Assembly: GCF_900618535.1 (NCBI RefSeq) | Contig: NZ_UYJA01000004.1 | Location: forward strand, 372,001-436,000 | Direction of reading: 5' to 3' | From: Pseudomonas bubulae | GTDB taxonomy: Bacteria; Pseudomonadota; Gammaproteobacteria; Pseudomonadales; Pseudomonadaceae | DNA length: 64,000 nt | Shown here: piece after piece, positions 2,816 through 55,007 of the stretch | Layout of the letters: every line of letters starts with the position of its first letter | How positions within the stretch are numbered: position 1 is the first letter of the stretch | Notes under the pieces: model-generated | Told to the model about the DNA's origin: nothing | The model's input: the letters and a program-made list of their open reading frames with translations, nothing else | Databases searched by the model: none | Made by a program: the position numbers and the translations under genes

Positions 2816-5584
2816 ATGAGCCAAGCTCCCCTCGTCCTGGTGGACGGTTCTTCATATCTGTACCGCGCCTTCCACGCGCTGCCGCCGCTGACTACGTCCA
2901 AAGGGCTGCCGACAGGCGCCGTGAAGGGCGTATTGAACATGCTCAAAAGCCTGCGCAAGCAGTATCCGGACAGCCCGTTCGCGGTGGTTTTCGATGCCAA
3001 GGGCGGGACATTTCGCGATGACATGTACGCCGAGTACAAGGCCAACCGCCCGAGCATGCCCGATGACATGCGGGTGCAAATCGAGCCATTGCACGCCAGT
3101 GTGATTGCGCTGGGTTTCCCCTTGCTGTGCGTTGAAGGCGTGGAGGCCGATGATGTCATCGGCACGCTGGCCCGCAGCAGCGCCGCGGCAGACCGACCAG
3201 TGGTCATCTCCACCGGTGACAAGGACATGGCCCAGCTGGTTGATGGCCACATCACGCTGGTTAACACCATGACCGGCAGCGTGATGGACATTGAGGGCGT
3301 TAAAGAGAAATTTGGCGTATCGCCCGAGCAGATCATCGACTACCTCGCGCTGATGGGCGATTCGTCTGACAACATTCCAGGCGTACCTGGTATTGGTCCC
3401 AAGACAGCGTCCGGCTTGCTGGTGGGTGTAGGCGGTGGTTTGGTCGATCTGTACGAAAAGCTCGATATCGTGCCGACCCTGCCCATTCGCGGCGCCAAAA
3501 ACTTGCCTGCCAAACTCGAAGAACATCGCGAAATGGCGTTTTTGTCCTATCAATTGGCGACGATCAAGATCGATGTGCCGCTGGATATCGGCCTGGAAGA
3601 CTTGCACCTCAAGGCGCCTGACTGCGAAAAGTTGATTGAGCTGTACACCGAACTTGAGTTCAAAAGCTGGATTGCCGAAGTTGAGCGCGAGGCCAAGCGT
3701 GCCGGGCAGGTGATTGTGCATGAGGCTCCTGAAGCGCCCGCCGAAGCGGAGCAACAGTACGAGACCATCCTCGATCAGGCTCGCTTTGATGTATGGCTAA
3801 AAAAACTCAACGACGCCAAATTGATTGCCTTTGATACCGAAACCACCGGCCTGGACGCGCAGCAAGCGCAGCTGGTGGGCCTGTCGTTCGCGGTCAAGCC
3901 TGGCGAAGCGGCTTACATTCCATTGACCCATTCCTACATGGGCGTACCCGAGCAACTGGATCGCGACACGGTATTGCGTGCCCTCAAGCCGCTGCTGGAA
4001 GACCCGAGCAAAGCCAAGGTCGGACAACACGCCAAGTACGACATGAATATTCTGGCCAACTGCGCCATCGGTGGCGATCAATCCTGCGGGATCATGGTTC
4101 AGGGCGTTGCCTTCGACACCATGCTTGAGTCCTATGTGCTCGACTCCACGGGCAGCCGCCACGATATGGACAGCCTGGCCCTCAAGTACCTGGGCCACAC
4201 CACCACCAGCTTCCAGGACATTGCCGGCAAGGGCGTCAAGCAACTGACCTTCGACCAGATTTCCCTGGAGCAGGCCGGCCCGTATGCGGCCGAAGATGCC
4301 GACGTGACCTTGCGTTTGCACCATGTACTGCACGAAAAACTCGCAGCGATCCCTAGCCTCAACAGCGTATTGACGGACATCGAGATGCCGCTGGTGCCGG
4401 TACTGGCGCGTATTGAACGTCAGGGCGCGCTGGTGGATGCCAACCTGCTGGGTATCCAGAGTGTTGAGCTGGGTGACAAGCTGGTTGCGCTTGAGCGTGA
4501 GGCTTTTGCCATTGCCGGTGAGGAGTTCAACCTGAGCTCACCCAAGCAACTGGGTGTGATCCTGTATGAAAAACTCGGTCTGCCAATCATCAGCAAAACG
4601 GCCAAAGGCCAGCCTTCGACTGCCGAAGCCGTGCTGGCGGAACTGGCCGAGCAGGACTTCCCGCTACCCAAGGTGCTGATGCAGTACCGCTCCATGAGCA
4701 AGCTGAAAAGCACCTACACCGATCGCCTGCCTGAGCAGATCAACCCGCGTACGGGCCGTATCCACACCTCCTACCACCAGGCCGTCACGGCGACCGGTCG
4801 TTTGTCTTCAAGTGATCCAAACTTGCAGAACATTCCGATCCGTACCGCCGAAGGTCGTCGGATCCGTCAGGCCTTTGTGGCCCCTAAAGGCTACAAACTG
4901 CTGGCGGCCGACTACTCGCAAATCGAGCTGCGGATCATGGCCCACCTGGCCAAGGACGAAGGTTTGCTGCATGCCTTCCGCAACAATCTGGACGTGCACA
5001 GCGCCACCGCTGCCGAGGTGTTCGGGGTTGATCTGGCGGACGTCACCACCGACCAGCGCCGCAGTGCCAAGGCCATCAACTTCGGCCTGATCTACGGCAT
5101 GAGCGCCTTTGGCCTGGCCAAACAGATCGGCGTCGACCGCAAACAGTCGCAAGCCTATATCGACCGTTATTTCGCACGTTACCCGGGCGTGCTGGACTAC
5201 ATGGAGCGCACGCGCACCCAGGCTGCCGAGCAAGGCTATGTCGAGACCATTTTCGGTCGTCGCTTGTACCTGCCGGAAATCAACGCGAAAAACCCGGCGC
5301 TGCGCAAAGGCGCCGAACGCACGGCAATCAACGCACCGATGCAGGGCACGGCAGCCGATATCATCAAAAAAGCCATGGTGTCTGTGGATAACTGGCTCAG
5401 CGCCTCAGGCCTCGATGCCCGCGTCATCCTGCAGGTACACGATGAACTGGTGCTAGAAGTGCGCGAAGACCTGGTGGACCAGGTGCGTGATGAAGTGCGG
5501 ATACACATGAGCGAAGCGGCGAAGCTGGATGTGCCGCTAGTGGTTGAAGTAGGCGTGGGCAACAACTGGGATGAAGCGCATTAA
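2816..5584 (+). CDS. polA: DNA polymerase I
   Basis: This is the repair and Okazaki-fragment-processing polymerase. The 922 residues contain all three domains. The N-terminal 5'-3' exonuclease includes [19 protein letters not shown] and [12 protein letters not shown]. The 3'-5' proofreading domain keeps its catalytic DTETTGLD and [12 protein letters not shown] motifs, so proofreading looks intact. The family A polymerase domain has [30 protein letters not shown] and [12 protein letters not shown] at 2816 matches the family N terminus ([13 protein letters not shown]). A REPIN and then the ersA sRNA gene follow, the same order as spf behind polA in enterobacteria. Confidence 0.98.
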
Positions 5585-47499: not shown

Positions 47500-49284
47500 T
47501 TATGCCTGAACCAGTGGGCCGGGGTTCTTCAGATACTGCTCGCGGATCGCCCGCGCCGACCAATAGGTCAATGCAGCCACCAGCCCCGTAGGGTTGTAGC
47601 CCAAACCTTGTGGGAAAGCCGATGCACCCGGCACAAACACGTTGTGCACGTCCCAGCTTTGCAGGTAACGGTTCAGTGCACTGGTTTTCGGGTTGGTCCC
47701 CATGATCGCTCCACCGTTAAGGTGGGTGGTCTGGTACGACGACGTATTGAAGTGGTCACCCACTTGTTTGCCGATACGCGCAATGGCCTTGGGGTTCATC
47801 GCTTCGGCGATCTTGCCCATTTTTTCCATCATGAAACGGTTCATCTTGATGTCGTTTTCTTGCCAGTCGAACGTCATGCGTAGCAACGGCTGGCCGTAGG
47901 CATCGCGATACACCGGGTCCAGATCGAGGTAGTTGCCACGGTAGGACTGATGCGCACCGTGGGCGTCCATGGACACTTGGTGAGTGTAGTAATCGGCGGT
48001 TGCACGCTTCCACGCGCTGCCCCAGGCCGGCGTACCCGGCGGGTTGGACGTGCCTGCAATCGGCCGGCTACCGGCCTGGTTGACCCACATCGGCGAGCCA
48101 CCGACAAAACCGTGCGGCCCGTGGTCGAAGTTGTCGGCGTTGAAATCATCAATTGCCACGCCATTGCCGCCTGCACCGATAAAGTTATTGGTGTGCACGT
48201 CTTTGTCGAAGTAGGCCTTGATGGTGCCCATGTTCTGGTAAGCAAAGTTTTTACCGACAACACCTTCGCCGGTTTTCGGGTCATACGGCTTGCCAATGCC
48301 CGACAACAACATCAGACGCACATTGTGGAACTGGAACGCGCCCAGGATCACCAGATCGGCCTGCTGCTCGATTTCTCGGCCCAGGGCATCGATATAGGTC
48401 ACGCCGGTAGCCTTGGTTTTGCTGCTGTCCAGGTTGACCCGGATCACATGGGCATTCGGGCGCAGCTCGAAGTTCGGCAACGGCTTCAGGGCAGGAAGAA
48501 TGTTTACGTTGGGCGATGCCTTGGAATACATGTAGCAGACATAACCGCTGCAAAAACCGCAGAAGTTGCACGGCCCCATCTGCGCGCCATAGGGGTTGGT
48601 GTATGGCCCGGAGGTGTTTGCCGACGGCAGGTTATAAGGCTTGTAGCCAACCTCATTGGCCGCTTTCTGAAACAGCTGTGCGGAGTAGGTGTTCTTCTGC
48701 GACACCAACGGAAAGTGGTCCGAACGGTCCGGCGCATAAGGGTTGCCGCCCTTGCCTTCACCGACCCGTTGGCCATTGACGGTCCAGGCCTGACCCGACG
48801 TACCAAAAACCTTTTCGGCATAGTCGAAGAACGGCTCCAGCTCTTCGTAGCTGACGCCGAAGTCCTGAATGGTCATGTCCTTGGGGATAAAGTTCTTGCC
48901 GTAACGCTCTTCGTAATGGCTGCGCATGCGCAGTTCGATCGGGTCGACCCGAAAGTGCACCCCCGACCAGTGCAAGCCTGCACCGCCCACACCGTTACCC
49001 GGCAGGAAAGCACCCAACTGGCGGTTGGGCAGGGCCACGTCATTGACGCTATGGCGAATGGTGACGGTTTCTTTGGAGACGTCCTGGAACAGCTTTTTGC
49101 GCACGCTGTAGGTAAGTTCGTCGATGACCTGTGGATAGTTGCCGTCTGGATAGGTGTCCTGCATCGGACCGCGCTCCAGGGCCACAACATTCAGGCCGGC
49201 TTCGGTCAGCTCTTTGGCCATGATCGCGCCGGTCCAACCGAAACCAACGATTACTGCATCAACTTTTTTCATAACGGTCGACAT
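47500..49284 (-). CDS. GMC-family FAD dehydrogenase large subunit, gluconate 2-dehydrogenase type
   Basis: This is the catalytic flavoprotein on the periplasmic face. It has 594 residues with an ADP-binding DAVIVGFGWTGAIMAKELTEA, GNGVGGAGLHWSGVHFR, a cysteine-rich stretch GPCNFCGFCSGYVCYM and the GMC C-terminal signature GGAIMGTNPKTSALNRYLQ with VFVPGASAFPQGLGYNPTG. It lacks its own export signal and is presumably carried by the Tat-signal small subunit. ATG at 49284 follows the small-subunit TGA by two bases (TGAGCATG). The substrate is probably gluconate (to 2-ketogluconate); other polyols are possible. Confidence 0.9.
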   Translation of the reverse strand: MSTVMKKVDAVIVGFGWTGAIMAKELTEAGLNVVALERGPMQDTYPDGNYPQVIDELTYSVRKKLFQDVSKETVTIRHSVNDVALPNRQLGAFLPGNGVGGAGLHWSGVHFRVDPIELRMRSHYEERYGKNFIPKDMTIQDFGVSYEELEPFFDYAEKVFGTSGQAWTVNGQRVGEGKGGNPYAPDRSDHFPLVSQKNTYSAQLFQKAANEVGYKPYNLPSANTSGPYTNPYGAQMGPCNFCGFCSGYVCYMYSKASPNVNILPALKPLPNFELRPNAHVIRVNLDSSKTKATGVTYIDALGREIEQQADLVILGAFQFHNVRLMLLSGIGKPYDPKTGEGVVGKNFAYQNMGTIKAYFDKDVHTNNFIGAGGNGVAIDDFNADNFDHGPHGFVGGSPMWVNQAGSRPIAGTSNPPGTPAWGSAWKRATADYYTHQVSMDAHGAHQSYRGNYLDLDPVYRDAYGQPLLRMTFDWQENDIKMNRFMMEKMGKIAEAMNPKAIARIGKQVGDHFNTSSYQTTHLNGGAIMGTNPKTSALNRYLQSWDVHNVFVPGASAFPQGLGYNPTGLVAALTYWSARAIREQYLKNPGPLVQA

Positions 49285-49286
49285 GC

Positions 49287-50027
49287 TCAAGCCCTCTCGC
49301 CGCGAATGGAAACTGCCGGGAAGGGGTATTGCTCGTTGCGTTCTACCCAGTCCATGAAATCAGCGCGCGCGCCGGGGAAGCCGATCATGGTCCAGCCGAT
49401 CATGCCTTTGTTGCCACCGTGAATAGGGTCGCAAAAGAAGCCTTCCTTGGTGTTTTGCAGCAAAAAGCTGAAAAACATCTTGGCCGGGACGCTATCGAAT
49501 TTAGGCGTGCCGGCTTCCAGCTGTTTGAGCACTTCGTCTCGGGTAGCGCTGTCTAGCCCAGCAAATGTTGAGTTATAGGCTTTTTTGCAGAGCTCCTCCG
49601 TGGCAGCAATGCCCAGGCGATAGATCTGTTTTGGCACCAGTTTGCTCTGCCAGCCCATTTCCGGCGCAGCGTCGGCATTGAACGGCCCCTGCATAAACCA
49701 CAGCGCGCCGCTGGCGTAAGGCGTGTTCATCTGACGGTCGATATATTCCGGAACGCCAGCTTCGAGCGCCCCCGGGCCTTGCTCGTCAGCCGGGATCAGA
49801 CGCGCGACGGCGGCGTTAACGAACGCCCACTCTTCAGCCGTGAAGTACGTTGGTTCATAGGCCGGGCCTGATGCGGCAACGGGCGGCGCAGCGACCGGTG
49901 CGGCTTGAGCGTCTGGCGTAGCCATCAGAACGGAACCACCCAGGCCCGTGCTCGCAACAGTGACCACTGGAATCAGGGTCAGGGTTTTGCGCAAAAACTC
50001 ACGCCGGGGGTTGTCTTGCTCAGACAT
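49287..50027 (-). CDS. Gluconate 2-dehydrogenase subunit 3 family, Tat-exported small subunit
   Basis: The 246-residue small subunit has a twin-arginine leader, RREFLRKTLTLIPVVTVASTG, that likely exports the complex with its bound flavoprotein. The mature part carries the family motifs YFTAEEWAFVNAAVARLIPAD, ALEAGVPEYIDRQMNTPYASG and EGFFCDPIHGGNKGMIGWTMIGFPG. ATG at 50027 has a GAGGT site upstream; an in-frame ATG at 50048 is less likely because it precedes that site. It is the first gene of the operon. Confidence 0.9.
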   Translation of the reverse strand: MSEQDNPRREFLRKTLTLIPVVTVASTGLGGSVLMATPDAQAAPVAAPPVAASGPAYEPTYFTAEEWAFVNAAVARLIPADEQGPGALEAGVPEYIDRQMNTPYASGALWFMQGPFNADAAPEMGWQSKLVPKQIYRLGIAATEELCKKAYNSTFAGLDSATRDEVLKQLEAGTPKFDSVPAKMFFSFLLQNTKEGFFCDPIHGGNKGMIGWTMIGFPGARADFMDWVERNEQYPFPAVSIRGERA

Positions 50028-50327
50028 GCGGGGCACCTCATCAGGCATTCACGGATTACAGCCGCTCATGGGCAGCTTTTCGTTTTGGCAGCGATACGGG
50101 TCGAAATCGACCTGAGAAAAAAAACGCAGGCAAAGTTTGGTTACAAATACTAACAGGCCAGGCGACCAGATGAATCGTTTCATGCGTAAATTTGCCGCAC
50201 CAATAGCATCAGGCCATCACTGGCTGCGCCCTCACGCTTTTTTGACAAATGCCTGACACAGTTTTGATAAGTCATCCCTCAATCTAGCGTTTCAACTTCC
50301 AAATTCTTTGTTAATGGTCGAACTGAT
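50028..50327. other. Divergent promoter region, no gene seen
   Basis: These 300 bases between the dehydrogenase operon and the phosphatase gene hold no credible ORF. There is an A-rich stretch (GAGAAAAAAAAC) near 50107 and a T run near 50238. Both promoters should lie here. Confidence 0.5.
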
Positions 50328-50960
50328 ATGCCCAAAGCCCGGTTTTTTCCTGCTCTGTGCCTGACCTTGCTGGCAGCGTTTTCTGTGCCTCAGGCCCTGG
50401 CCGACGAAACAGTCCAGGCCCGGCCTGTACAGTGGGCACAGCCCATTGCCACGCAATACAACCTCTATCAAATGTCCCCGACCCTGTACCGCAGCGCACT
50501 GCCTGACAGTGCCGCGCAGCCGCTGCTGGAAAAATTACAGATAACCACCGTCATCAACTTCTTGCCTGATGCCGACAGTTCCTGGCTCAAGACTCCAGGC
50601 GTCGCTCAAGTCCAACTGCCTTATCGCACCAACCATGTAGATGACACCGATGTGCTGGCCGCGCTGCGTGCCATCCAGACGGCACAAGCACAGGGCCCTG
50701 TATTGATGCACTGCAAGCACGGTTCGGACCGTACCGGGCTGATGGCGGCGATGTACCGCGTGGTCGTGCAGGACTGGAGCAAGGAAGACGCCCTGAAAGA
50801 AATGACCCAGGGCGGCTTTGGCGAAAACTCGCACCACAAAGATGGCGAGAGCTACATGATGAAGGCGGATATCCCACAGTTGCGCGCAGCCCTAAGCAGC
50901 GGCGCATGCAGTACCAGCCCTTTTGCTTCATGCGTGGTGAAGAACTGGCTCAAGTCCTGA
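50328..50960 (+). CDS. Periplasmic dual-specificity/tyrosine phosphatase-like protein
   Basis: The 210-residue precursor has a signal peptide (FFPALCLTLLAAFSVPQALA) and a cysteine-phosphatase domain with the P-loop HCKHGSDRTG, where C129 and R135 form the CX5R catalytic pair. Upstream YRSALPD and ITTVINFLPD are typical of the bacterial DSP/PTP group that includes proteins acting on phosphoinositides or phosphotyrosine. An Asp general acid may be in VDDTDVLAAL. Export is unusual for signalling phosphatases and suggests an extracytoplasmic or surface target. It is convergent with the M3-like gene. Confidence 0.87.
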   Translation: MPKARFFPALCLTLLAAFSVPQALADETVQARPVQWAQPIATQYNLYQMSPTLYRSALPDSAAQPLLEKLQITTVINFLPDADSSWLKTPGVAQVQLPYRTNHVDDTDVLAALRAIQTAQAQGPVLMHCKHGSDRTGLMAAMYRVVVQDWSKEDALKEMTQGGFGENSHHKDGESYMMKADIPQLRAALSSGACSTSPFASCVVKNWLKS

Positions 50961-50966
50961 AGATAC

Positions 50967-52973
50967 CTACACGCTCGCGGGCGGCTGGCCCATAAACTCC
51001 TCGAAAGACTCATGCAGCGGGCGTTCGATGCCCGGTGCATGGAAGGCTTCGCGATAGGCCAAGCCCGTTTGCGGGTTAAACACACCTTGCTGTTCAAACC
51101 TTGCAAAAACCTGCTCAGCCATCGCTTCGGCCCATTCATTGACGAAATAAGCGCCATCATGGCCCGAGACGATCGCATCGAAAGTGTTGGCAGATCGGTC
51201 GTTCTGCGCCAACGGTAACGGCTGGAGTTCATTGTGTGCACTGCGCCAGATCTCTTCCACGCTGCGGCCATCGCCCCAGGTGCGGTGCAGTTCAAAATCA
51301 AACAGCGCAAGCCCAAGCTCGCGGGCCGTTTCAAGCCAACGCTCGGCACTGCGCGCTTCAAGTACTTGGTCTATCTGCTCATAGGTCAGCTCACTGTCAT
51401 GCTGGGCATGCCTGGCCAACCAGCGCAGACCGTCCCGTGACCAGCACCACTTTTCAGCGCATTTGCCTGAAAACCCGGACGCCTCAGCATTCAGTACATC
51501 CACGCGGGAAAATGCACCGTAGGGACTGCGGGTCAGCAGTTGCTTCATGCAACAACCCAACTCATGGAAAAGCAGGGTTAACTGCTGCGGCGTCAGCAGT
51601 GATGGGGAGCCAGGGGATTCGGGTGAGAAGTTGCCATAGAGAATGGCCACCGGGGTGGTCAGGCCCCCTTGCTGATTGATTCTGCGGTTACGTGCCGACT
51701 GCATCCAGCACATATTCGGCTTGGATTCACGAAGGTAAGGGTCGAGATAAAGATGCCCCACCCGAACACCTGACTCGACCACCTCAAACAAACGAACGTC
51801 CGGGTGCCAGGTATCAAACGATACCTGTTCGACCAGATCGACCGCGAAGAGGCGCTTGACGAGTAACACGATGCCTTCAAAAACACGTGTGAACGCAAAA
51901 TATGATTTCAATTGATCGCCCGCCAGCGGGCTTAGTTGCAGAGCGCGTTTTTGCGCCAGAAACAACAGATCCCATGGTTTGAGTCCGTCGTATTGCATAG
52001 CCGACGCCAGGGCATGCAGCTCTGCGGTTTGAGTTGAAAAAAATGCCGACTTGCGTTCAATTCGAGTGCGCAGAAAACTCAGCACCTCATCAACCGAGGT
52101 TGCCGTCTTGCCCTGCAGGCTCAGCTCGGCATGGCTGTCATACCCCAGCAGGCGCGCCTTCTGCTGACGCAGCCTGAGCAGATCATGGAGCACCGGGCCA
52201 TTGCCATATTGCCCGCCTGCGGGGCCCTGCTCGGAAGCCCGCGTGTTGTAGGCCGTGAACAACTCCTCGCGCAGCGCCCTGTTTTCGCATGAGCGCATGA
52301 TCGCGGTGTAGGTAGCGCGCTCCTGAAGAGTTATCAGCCAGCCTTGCAGGTCGGCGTCCGTGGCAATGTCTGCCAACTGCCCCTTGAGTTCACTCGCAAG
52401 CCCCGCAAGCAAGGACTCATCGGTAACCAGCTTGCTCCAGGACTTTCTGGATTGTCGTGCGTTTTCGTAAAAAACCCATTCCTGTCGGGATATCTCGTGG
52501 TTGAGCTCGATGAGTTCGCCTCTGCCAGAGGCTGACAGCTCACTCCCAGCCAACCGGTAGTCGCGCAGTATCTTGCCCAATAGAGCCTGCTGCGAGCGAT
52601 CAAATTGCATGGCTTCAGGGCTTTCTGCCAAAGCCTTGCAGGCCAGATAAAGCTCGCGATTTTGCAAGACTTGCGCCTTGTAATTGTAGGCAGCCAGAAA
52701 GCATTGGCCGATGTCTGTTTCCCATGACACTTCTCTTGGTACCTGCCCCAGTGTCGTGATGACGGCAATGGCTTCATCCAGCCGCGCCGTCAGGGCTTCC
52801 ATCGGCAACACCAGGCCCGACCATGTGGGTTGGGACTGGGCACTGACGATTCGGCTGATTGACTGCAGGTTGTCGGCAACAATGTGTTCGATTGCCGGCT
52901 TGAGATGTTCTAGACGTACCTTGCTGTAAAGGGGCAGAAGGGTCGCGCTCAACAGCGGGTTGGTTGGCTCCAT
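50967..52973 (-). CDS. M3 family oligopeptidase-like protein with an altered zinc motif
   Basis: The 668 residues align by eye with oligopeptidase A/PrlC over the full length: N terminus MEPTNPLLSATLLPLYSKV, EWVFYENARQSRKSWSKLV, KARLLGYDSHAELSL and FDFELHRTW near the end. The zinc motif, normally FHEFGH, reads FHELGC at 469-474, so H470 and E471 remain but the second histidine is Cys474. The later Glu region (AEKWCWSRDGL) is kept but its surroundings have changed. The whole gene is unusually divergent. It may be a pseudo-peptidase or bind metal through Cys. The open frame is intact, which argues against recent decay. Confidence 0.85.
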   Translation of the reverse strand: MEPTNPLLSATLLPLYSKVRLEHLKPAIEHIVADNLQSISRIVSAQSQPTWSGLVLPMEALTARLDEAIAVITTLGQVPREVSWETDIGQCFLAAYNYKAQVLQNRELYLACKALAESPEAMQFDRSQQALLGKILRDYRLAGSELSASGRGELIELNHEISRQEWVFYENARQSRKSWSKLVTDESLLAGLASELKGQLADIATDADLQGWLITLQERATYTAIMRSCENRALREELFTAYNTRASEQGPAGGQYGNGPVLHDLLRLRQQKARLLGYDSHAELSLQGKTATSVDEVLSFLRTRIERKSAFFSTQTAELHALASAMQYDGLKPWDLLFLAQKRALQLSPLAGDQLKSYFAFTRVFEGIVLLVKRLFAVDLVEQVSFDTWHPDVRLFEVVESGVRVGHLYLDPYLRESKPNMCWMQSARNRRINQQGGLTTPVAILYGNFSPESPGSPSLLTPQQLTLLFHELGCCMKQLLTRSPYGAFSRVDVLNAEASGFSGKCAEKWCWSRDGLRWLARHAQHDSELTYEQIDQVLEARSAERWLETARELGLALFDFELHRTWGDGRSVEEIWRSAHNELQPLPLAQNDRSANTFDAIVSGHDGAYFVNEWAEAMAEQVFARFEQQGVFNPQTGLAYREAFHAPGIERPLHESFEEFMGQPPASV

Positions 52974-53085
52974 GGCAGCATTCCTTGAAAGTTCTGCTTC
53001 ATTTCGGGCTGAGTATCGGTGGGTTCTCAGCCTATTGAGACAGGGATTTCAGGGGGGCTATCTATGTAGTGCAGCCTCAAAAAGC

Positions 53086-54132
53086 TCAGCGTTCTGCCCA
53101 TTTATACAAGGCAGCCTTGCGCTGTTCGGGGGGCAATTTACCCAGCTGTTCAACTTCGGCATAAAAACTCGGCCAGTCGCCGCCCACGTGCTTGAACAGG
53201 GCTGAGAAGGCAGGCACCCATTGATCGTAAAGACCGAAGGGCAACAATTTGGCGTTATTGAGAGGGCCATTGACCCACGCGTCATAGCGCGGATTTCCCG
53301 CCCATTGCTCATCCCGTAACTGACGATAATCACGGCGCATTCGTTCGAATGCAGCGGTTTTACGCTGCTGCATTTCGGCTGCAGGCAACGGCTGTGCATA
53401 AAGGGTCTTCAAGCGCTGGCGAGTGTCGAGCACCAGGGTGATAAATTGTTCACGTTGCTGCACATGGCTGCCGTCGGAGGGTGGCAAGCCTTGTTCGACG
53501 CGCCATTGGCGGGTGCCTTCCTGTTCCACGAAACTGGCAAAAGACTCATTGAATTCAGTGTCGTCCTTCACATAAAACTGCTGATGGGCCAGCTCGTGAA
53601 AGATCAGTGTGGCCAAGCGCTCATCACCCCAATTGAGCATGCCATTGAGGATCGGGTCATCAAACCATCCCAGGGTGGAATAGGCTTCAACGCCGCTGAC
53701 AAACACGTCCATGCCCTGCTGGTGTTGCAGGGCCGCCTCGCCTCGCGCCGCTCCCTGGCTGTAATAACCCCGGTAGGCCACGCACCCGGCTATGGGAAAG
53801 CAATGGGTGACGGGGTCGAGGGAATACGCCGGGGTGGCAAAGACATTCCACACCACGTACTGCCGTTTCAGGTCGGCATACAGACGATAGCTCTGGTTGT
53901 CCGGCAGGTGTAAATGCTCGCTGGCGAAGGAGCGCGCAGCCTGGGCTTTTGCCAATTGCTCACGCAACGCTGTCGGGCGCCGGGGATCAACAATCACCTT
54001 GCTCACGGGTTCACGGGCCTGCAATAAATTCCATTGGCCGGTGGCCAATTGCGAGTAGTAGCCCGCACTGGAGCAACCGCTGAGAAGAAGCGGCAAGGCA
54101 AGGACCAACAAGCCGCGAACACGCGAGGTCAT
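53086..54132 (-). CDS. Putative aminopeptidase-like zinc lipoprotein
   Basis: The 348-residue protein has a lipobox signal (LVLALPLLLSGCSSAG) and a gluzincin-type site ATLIFHELAHQQFYVKDDTEFNESFASFVE: HExxH plus a downstream Glu. This is the family annotated as predicted aminopeptidase (DUF2265-like). FATPAYSLDPVTHCFPIAGCVAYRGYY is another conserved segment. ATG at 54132 gives the signal; the longer frame reads non-homologous sequence. It lies 113 bases upstream of the M3-like gene on the same strand and is divergent from a small lipoprotein gene. Confidence 0.88.
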   Translation of the reverse strand: MTSRVRGLLVLALPLLLSGCSSAGYYSQLATGQWNLLQAREPVSKVIVDPRRPTALREQLAKAQAARSFASEHLHLPDNQSYRLYADLKRQYVVWNVFATPAYSLDPVTHCFPIAGCVAYRGYYSQGAARGEAALQHQQGMDVFVSGVEAYSTLGWFDDPILNGMLNWGDERLATLIFHELAHQQFYVKDDTEFNESFASFVEQEGTRQWRVEQGLPPSDGSHVQQREQFITLVLDTRQRLKTLYAQPLPAAEMQQRKTAAFERMRRDYRQLRDEQWAGNPRYDAWVNGPLNNAKLLPFGLYDQWVPAFSALFKHVGGDWPSFYAEVEQLGKLPPEQRKAALYKWAER

Positions 54133-54206
54133 AAAGCGATCCAGTAGGCGAGTGATGTGACCATAATGCACGCTATGCTTGCGTAACACTTTTTTTGGAC
54201 ATCATC

Positions 54207-54623
54207 ATGCCCACGCTTTTGTGGTTGCTGGCTGCTTGTCTGCTCAGCGCCTGTACCAGCACGCCAATCCCCCCGGCTGATCCCGCCATGGCCTGGGTCG
54301 ACCTTGAAACCCAAACCGGCAAGCTGGTAATGGCCGAGCGTCTGGATAACAAGCGACAGGCCGATGGCCGCTATTTTCAAGTAACGCCAGGTAGCCACGA
54401 GTTGATGGTGCGCTTCGATTTCGAGGTGTTTGTCGGCGGCATGGGTATGTTCAGTGACCCACAGGAACGCCTGTGTTACGTCACCGTCGATTACGACAAC
54501 TTCCAGCCCGGCCAGCGTTACCGGCTACAGGCCCGCTCACTGGGCTTCAACGCCTACGCCCGGCTGTACGACGCAACGGGCAAGGTGGTCGCCGAGGAGC
54601 GGCTGGTCAACTGCTTACCTTGA
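54207..54623 (+). CDS. Hypothetical small lipoprotein
   Basis: The 138-residue protein has a lipobox (LLAACLLSAC) and a mature domain that reads like a small beta protein: KLVMAERLDNKRQADGRYFQV, TPGSHELMVRFDFEVF and RYRLQARSLGFNAYARLYD. A conserved Cys in LCYVTVDYD is notable. Such proteins are widespread in Pseudomonas without known function. ATG at 54207 is preferred over a TTG at 54195. Its stop overlaps the convergent DUF1161 gene by nine bases. Confidence 0.78.
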   Translation: MPTLLWLLAACLLSACTSTPIPPADPAMAWVDLETQTGKLVMAERLDNKRQADGRYFQVTPGSHELMVRFDFEVFVGGMGMFSDPQERLCYVTVDYDNFQPGQRYRLQARSLGFNAYARLYDATGKVVAEERLVNCLP

Positions 54624-54860
54624 AGGCTGACGGTCGTTGTTCTGGTAGATGATTTTCTTGGTGCCGCTTTCACACGAACCAACCACCATGTTCTCGTCAT
54701 GAACTTCTTCATTGCTCACGATTTCGAGGGTGTAGGACGACACATTGTTCGCCTGGATCTTGGCTTCGATTTCGGCTTTCAGTTCTTCGCACGGCTTGGG
54801 CGCCGCCAGAGCCGAGGTGGCCAAGGCGCAGCAAACTACAGCTAGAGCAAAACGTTTCAT
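54615..54860 (-). CDS. DUF1161 family small exported protein, copy 1
   Basis: The 81-residue precursor has the signal MKRFALAVVCCALATSALAA and a short domain KPCEELKAEIEAKIQANNVS with VGSCESGTKKIIY, the DUF1161 pattern with two conserved cysteines likely joined by a disulfide. A second member lies at 56780-57004. Function is unknown. ATG at 54860 follows AGGGAGTC. Confidence 0.87.
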   Translation of the reverse strand: MKRFALAVVCCALATSALAAPKPCEELKAEIEAKIQANNVSSYTLEIVSNEEVHDENMVVGSCESGTKKIIYQNNDRQPSR

Positions 54861-55007
54861 GGTGAGACTCCCTTGAGGCAGAACGCAAAGTCATGATCTG
54901 ACGCGAGTAACGACCATTCGATCACATATCGCACAGCGCAGGACTGATCTGTCGCAGCCGGGTATCGATTGTGCCCCGCTAGCGGTTAGCGGGGCACACA
55001 GGTGGTG

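Follow-up and report, generated by a model that had tools for sequence, protein, structure and literature searches.

The window, a stretch of 64,000 nucleotides from Pseudomonas bubulae, carries a peptidase M3-like gene (here, window M3) flanked by a putative aminopeptidase gene and a phosphatase-like gene. Our detailed inspection covered positions 47500-55000 of the window, where we placed the following features.

50328..50960, plus strand: DSP/tyrosine-phosphatase-like gene, convergent neighbour, bounding the insertion site on the 3' side
50967..52973, minus strand: probable M3 pseudopeptidase gene, an intact frame of 668 codons that begins with ATG
51138..51140, minus strand: Asn612 in place of the second conserved loop Tyr (genome G256 has Arg), placed by alignment
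51159..51161, minus strand: His605 in place of the conserved loop Tyr (Tyr605 of thimet oligopeptidase), placed by alignment
51474..51476, minus strand: Gly500 where the third zinc ligand (Glu) would be, placed by alignment
51552..51566, minus strand: HELGC replacing HExxH, codons 470-474 (second zinc His is Cys474), coordinates worked out by hand from the start of the reading frame
52982..52986, minus strand: AAGGA resembling a ribosome-binding site, 8 bases ahead of the ATG, common to F1801, G399, and G256 (7 bases in G256)
53086..54189, minus strand: PF10023 putative aminopeptidase gene, upstream neighbour, bounding the insertion site on the 5' side

Window M3 reads from 52973 to 50967 on the minus strand as 668 amino acids with zero internal stops, and the plus-strand reading of 50967-52973 is interrupted by many stops; the first-pass annotation of this DNA, which had described an intact, full-length frame of 668 codons, was therefore right, with the strand being minus. 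The protein is a full-length peptidase M3, with M3 homology evident from a match to Pfam PF01432 (E=6.7e-82, residues 225-665) and a match to TOP_N (E=2.8e-9, residues 43-147), and its best solved chains (4put, 4ka8, and 4ka7) are all oligopeptidase A (PrlC/OpdA, M3A), which it resembles in full-length homology and in size. Against the oligopeptidase A equivalog NF008159, it scored 374.4 bits, below the curated cut-off of 927. The host genome (G000, 5.03 Mb) has two M3 matches at E <= 0.001. Its canonical PrlC (C4:275826-277817), with HEFGH and ELPSQFMENWCW, is 39% identical to window M3 and lies ∼145 kb from it, so that the description of window M3 as far from ordinary PrlC held, and the canonical prlC whose presence had been left to check is there. 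A scan of 50900-54400 turned up no sigma-70-like promoter (shuffles averaged 1.6).

The residues at the motif are F469, H470, E471, L472, G473, C474, and C475: HExxH is absent and HELGC stands in its place. Reading FHELGC at residues 469-474, with Cys474 for a zinc histidine, had been the starting observation, and it proved exact when the residues were re-read. In thimet oligopeptidase, the zinc ligands are the two histidines of HExxH plus a further glutamate (PMC7565970). Three more lesions, none of them in the first-pass annotation, came from the alignment: the downstream Glu ligand is missing, with Gly500 in its place (the alignment there is ungapped as far as a conserved WCW), and the two loop tyrosines are His605 and Asn612. 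Position 605 is, on the alignment, probably the equivalent of OpdA Tyr607, and position 612 presumably corresponds to thimet oligopeptidase Tyr612, a loop tyrosine with a functional role. OpdA Tyr607, in a flexible loop, has been described as key to substrate recognition (PMC5124237). Window M3 retains His470 and the general base Glu471. When near-invariant positions were defined on 86 other M3 proteins, window M3 kept 57 of 67, and the ten that changed include Cys474, Gly500, His605, and Asn612. The position of thimet oligopeptidase His600, a residue that matters for activity (PMC9266445), is Ala in window M3; this is not diagnostic, because Tyr occupies it in 48 of the 70 second M3 copies listed from Pseudomonas (see below). 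Unlike oligopeptidase A, then, window M3 lacks two of the three zinc ligands (the second His and the Glu) and both loop Tyr. Judged by its residues, it is homologous to M3 but would stand outside the family as an active peptidase, because HExxH, the downstream Glu, and Tyr605/612 were each looked for and none was found, and an annotation as active oligopeptidase A would probably be wrong.

Cys474 was found in all three genomes read from the Pseudomonas fragi lineage: the window, G399 (the window's species; 99% identity, HELGCC, Gly500), and P. fragi F1801 (88% identity, HELGCC, Lys500), the last being the only named-genome relative returned for the protein. All three share the His605/Asn612 loop. 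A sequencing error, which had been thought unlikely but possible, is excluded by the Cys common to these relatives, as is a fresh mutation. The next two homologues carry His: G256 (72% identity) reads HELGHC with Arg500, His605, and Arg612, and G244 (49% identity) reads HEFGHC with Glu500, Tyr605, and Tyr612, a complete site. His in all close homologues had been named beforehand as evidence against a genuine change; the nearest two have Cys, and it is the next two that have His. In a quick tree built from 39 second copies plus 12 of the 51 PrlC-like rows, in which G244 (L005) and others were flagged as long branches, these five genes formed a clade (SH-aLRT 100), within which the four other than G244 were nested as a clade of their own (SH-aLRT 100). 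As read from these sequences, Glu500 and the loop Tyr were lost first and His474 became Cys later, because G256 still has His474. Position 500, which differs among three close relatives (Gly, Lys, and Arg), resembles a functionless site. A simple exchange of one ligand, His for Cys, is ruled out as the main story, since the Glu and Tyr losses are earlier. The first-pass annotation had offered either a pseudo-peptidase or a Cys-ligated metal site; the former is well supported by the further ligand and Tyr losses, by the variable position 500, and by the purifying selection described below, and the latter is unsupported because Glu and Tyr were already gone before the Cys appeared (G256 has HELGHC and Arg500). 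Among the other 66 second copies listed, 60 carry Cys475 too.

Our survey of the genus merged 182 hits into 142 distinct proteins (70 second copies and 72 PrlC-like), a sample consisting of the listed matches; the alignment of relatives merged 100 hits into 90. Among the matches listed, HExxH and the downstream Glu were kept in 72/72 PrlC-like proteins and in 66/70 second copies, G244 included, and the four exceptions were the window, G399, F1801, and G256, which rules out frequent ligand loss in Pseudomonas second copies. These other second copies belong to the same family as window M3, are about 29-43% identical to it, and are also diverging fast; unlike window M3, they keep the zinc site. 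One of them, L053, was counted as a second copy though it is closer to PrlC (57%), and L151 and L152 are short frames, the latter stopping before the loop Tyr. In 24 fetched loci, mostly selected for this arrangement, the second copy and prlC are immediate neighbours on the same strand; at least six further second copies (G188, G099, G238, G236, G168, and G040) are located away from prlC, as is window M3. Two second copies beside prlC, L060 (G070) and L061 (G037), have Thr at 605 with all zinc ligands kept and sit on a very long branch (1.07), possibly an independent change of chemistry. At G034:C1:1070284-1073946, the M3 matches come in pieces: the second copy stays open for 566 codons and a shortened match to PrlC for 569, which suggests frame errors or decay.

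We defined close relatives as the ten genomes, from 398 searched, whose PrlC is 94-100% identical to the window's. A second M3 is present in three of them (G399, G256, and G244) and absent from the other seven. In these three and in F1801, it lies between the PF10023 aminopeptidase and phosphatase genes, and in six of the seven relatives without it, both neighbours are there, their matches 8 to 50 bases apart. A tblastn search (E up to 1e-3) of the stretches fetched from the seven genomes found no M3 relics at the empty sites. The seventh genome, G198 (L124), lacks the phosphatase match at the locus and has an aminopeptidase interrupted by a frame change and by a stop near codon 295 of the match. 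It is the only relative of three suspected in which this gene is broken, the stops in G443 and G106 being the natural end or preceding the start; a broken prlC in G198 was ruled out as well, the TAA being its natural end. Aminopeptidase identity to the window falls from F1801 (89%) and G256 (87%) through G244 (81%) to G196 and G132 (78%) and the rest (72-75%), an order that a single arrival (or relocation) in the common ancestor of the leading group would explain, although losses in other relatives may have occurred. The source of the gene was probably among the genus's other second copies, but the tree joins the M3 clade to them weakly (73). Carriage by a plasmid or phage was rejected, since matches among the best 10 of 85 plasmid and 5 of 26 phage records were only 30-32% identical; several of the listed matches carry annotations of oligopeptidase A or of peptidase family M3.

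Between species, window M3 is held by purifying selection near the level of the adjacent aminopeptidase. For the window-F1801 pair, M3 gave a dN of 0.058, a dS of 0.405, and a dN/dS of 0.143 (NG86) or 0.226 (YN00), and the aminopeptidase gave a dN/dS of 0.145 (NG86) or 0.240 (YN00); the phosphatase (0.060 by NG86, 0.148 by YN00) and a neighbouring dehydrogenase (0.006) are far more constrained than M3. The dN/dS for the window-G256 pair was 0.192 (NG86), and dS was saturated in pairs with G244. No stop codon is present in any of the four M3 genes of the nested clade. Neutral simulations that started from the F1801 gene and allowed point changes only (kappa 2, 500 runs) produced a mean of 16.4 stops with a minimum of 6 at 0.3 events/site, and a mean of 19.5 with a minimum of 8 at 0.4 events/site. 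Within the species, the window and G399 differ by 11 codons (6 replacement and 5 silent), with a dN/dS of 0.37 (NG86) or 0.50 (YN00), values that come from too few changes for a verdict and give no sign of strong constraint. The ratio of M3 to aminopeptidase distance was 3.7 for G244, 2.39 for G256, 1.08 for F1801, and 1.8 for G399, the last on very few changes. The gene probably changed in a burst at about the time catalysis was lost and settled afterwards; such an early burst could also come from replacement by a diverged allele.

These data bear on the possibility that the gene is simply on its way out, a functionless inactive copy sampled before stops build up. The fast earlier change (ratios of 3.7 and 2.39), the several catalytic losses, the patchy presence in 3/10 close relatives, and the 6 replacement against 5 silent changes within the species could all reflect decay. 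We nonetheless regard decay as unlikely: dN/dS between species is 0.14-0.19 in the nested clade, all four members are free of stops, the distance ratio to F1801 is 1.08, and the ribosome-binding-site-like sequence and the 5' flank are conserved.

Conservation also moved within the protein. Active second copies compared at 62-82% identity (45 pairs, L043 and L053 left out) were best conserved in the segments holding HExxH and the Glu (441-515) and the Tyr loop (591-625), with relative identities of 1.14 (sd 0.06) and 1.24 (sd 0.08), respectively. In two pairs from the nested clade, which both include G256 and are thus not independent, 441-515 stood at 0.96 and 0.90 and 591-625 at 0.85 and 0.92, and residues 1-130 and 131-260, at 0.95 and 0.92 in the active pairs, stood at 1.06-1.12; the window-F1801 pair lies above the identity band and was not compared. 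For that pair, dN/dS was 0.159 in 441-515 and 0.188 in 591-625 versus 0.143 overall. The active-site segments in the P. fragi lineage are still constrained but are no longer special.

An enzyme with an altered metal site, for example, one using His470 and Cys474 with His605 or another third ligand, would give a meaning to the His605 that replaces Tyr605 in all four members of the nested clade, to the Cys474 and Cys475 fixed in all three of the P. fragi lineage, and to the retention of His470 and Glu471. Such an enzyme seems improbable to us: Gly, Lys, or Arg occupies the usual place of the third ligand, the second loop Tyr is gone, and the active-site segments have lost their special conservation. 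More doubtful still is a rebuilt centre, in which Tyr605 becoming His in the common ancestor, together with the loss of Glu500, would have shifted the third ligand to the mobile loop (His470, His/Cys474, and His605). If that were true, a metal or thiol centre would form only when the clamshell closed round a peptide, and the protein would represent new M3-fold chemistry or a sensor. M3A enzymes are generally monomeric, the two genes are ∼145 kb apart, and seven of the ten close relatives carry prlC alone, all of which speak against window M3 as an inactive chain pairing with active PrlC. We consider this the least probable reading, even with a canonical prlC in the same genome and a precedent in alpha-MPP/beta-MPP (PMC11266112).

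We therefore favour, as the probable explanation, that window M3 is a maintained M3 pseudopeptidase, disarmed stepwise and kept by selection for a role without cleavage, a reading consistent with the observed ligand losses and their order on the tree, the intact frame, the constraint, and the common location. Two marks of a pseudopeptidase were found: catalytic residues are missing, and the gene is kept by selection, in this case between species. A second oligopeptidase A-type copy would have arrived between the aminopeptidase-like and phosphatase-like genes in an ancestor shared by part of the P. fragi group, at first as a complete zinc enzyme, which the G244 protein still appears to be. The third zinc Glu and the two loop Tyr would next have been lost during fast change, and in P. 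fragi the second zinc His would then have become Cys, with purifying selection since that time about equal to that on the adjacent aminopeptidase gene. Window M3 very probably no longer holds a catalytic zinc or performs ordinary M3 cleavage, and the gene, intact despite the loss of its zinc site, probably does a non-cutting job. An inactive thimet oligopeptidase captured peptides, so the M3 clamshell can bind without cutting (PMC7565970). Window M3 could conceivably act in this manner, binding a peptide or a partner protein through its M3 shell and leaving it uncut, perhaps as a sink, competitor, or regulator alongside canonical PrlC. Conservation has fallen at the catalytic centre and risen in the N-terminal half, however, a pattern that favours an interaction surface away from the former active site. 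Set against the pseudopeptidase reading are the patchy presence (seven of ten close relatives are without the gene), the retention of His470 and Glu471, the far stronger constraint on the phosphatase and dehydrogenase neighbours, the negative promoter scan, and the few within-species changes, which do not signal strong constraint. The shift of conservation away from the active site, moreover, comes from the two G256 pairs, the active-site segments in P. fragi being about as constrained as the remainder of the protein.

Pseudo-metallopeptidases are already known as a kind, and M1 Tma108, M12 ADAMs, M13 Goe, M14 AEBP1, M16 alpha-MPP, and M41 FtsHi are likewise kept without zinc or catalytic residues. 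A review tabulates inactive cases in M1, M12, M13, M14, M15, M16, M24, and M41; its Tables 1 and 2 and its section on other families hold no M3 case, and the pseudo-metallopeptidases it covers there are eukaryotic save for a mention of prokaryotic MPP homologues (PMC11266112). Among the matches listed from the open-licence literature, no title or opening of an abstract named an M3 pseudopeptidase. One genus offers here, at one locus, a graded series (the empty site, the complete G244 gene, the G256 gene without Glu and Tyr, and the disarmed, constrained P. fragi gene), so that the birth of a bacterial pseudopeptidase becomes testable stepwise.

Two further observations concern the surroundings of the gene. 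At 47500-50048 of the window, a GMC-type dehydrogenase and the gene preceding it are 99.8-100% identical to those of F1801, with a dS of 0.12, beside M3, aminopeptidase, and phosphatase genes whose dS to F1801 is 0.34-0.48; this could reflect either recent recombination or strong codon bias. A gene for a small DUF1161 protein lies at 54615-54860 of the window and at 1970-2206 and 4114-4356 of locus L003, and F1801 has a second DUF1161 copy, 50% identical and ∼2 kb off.
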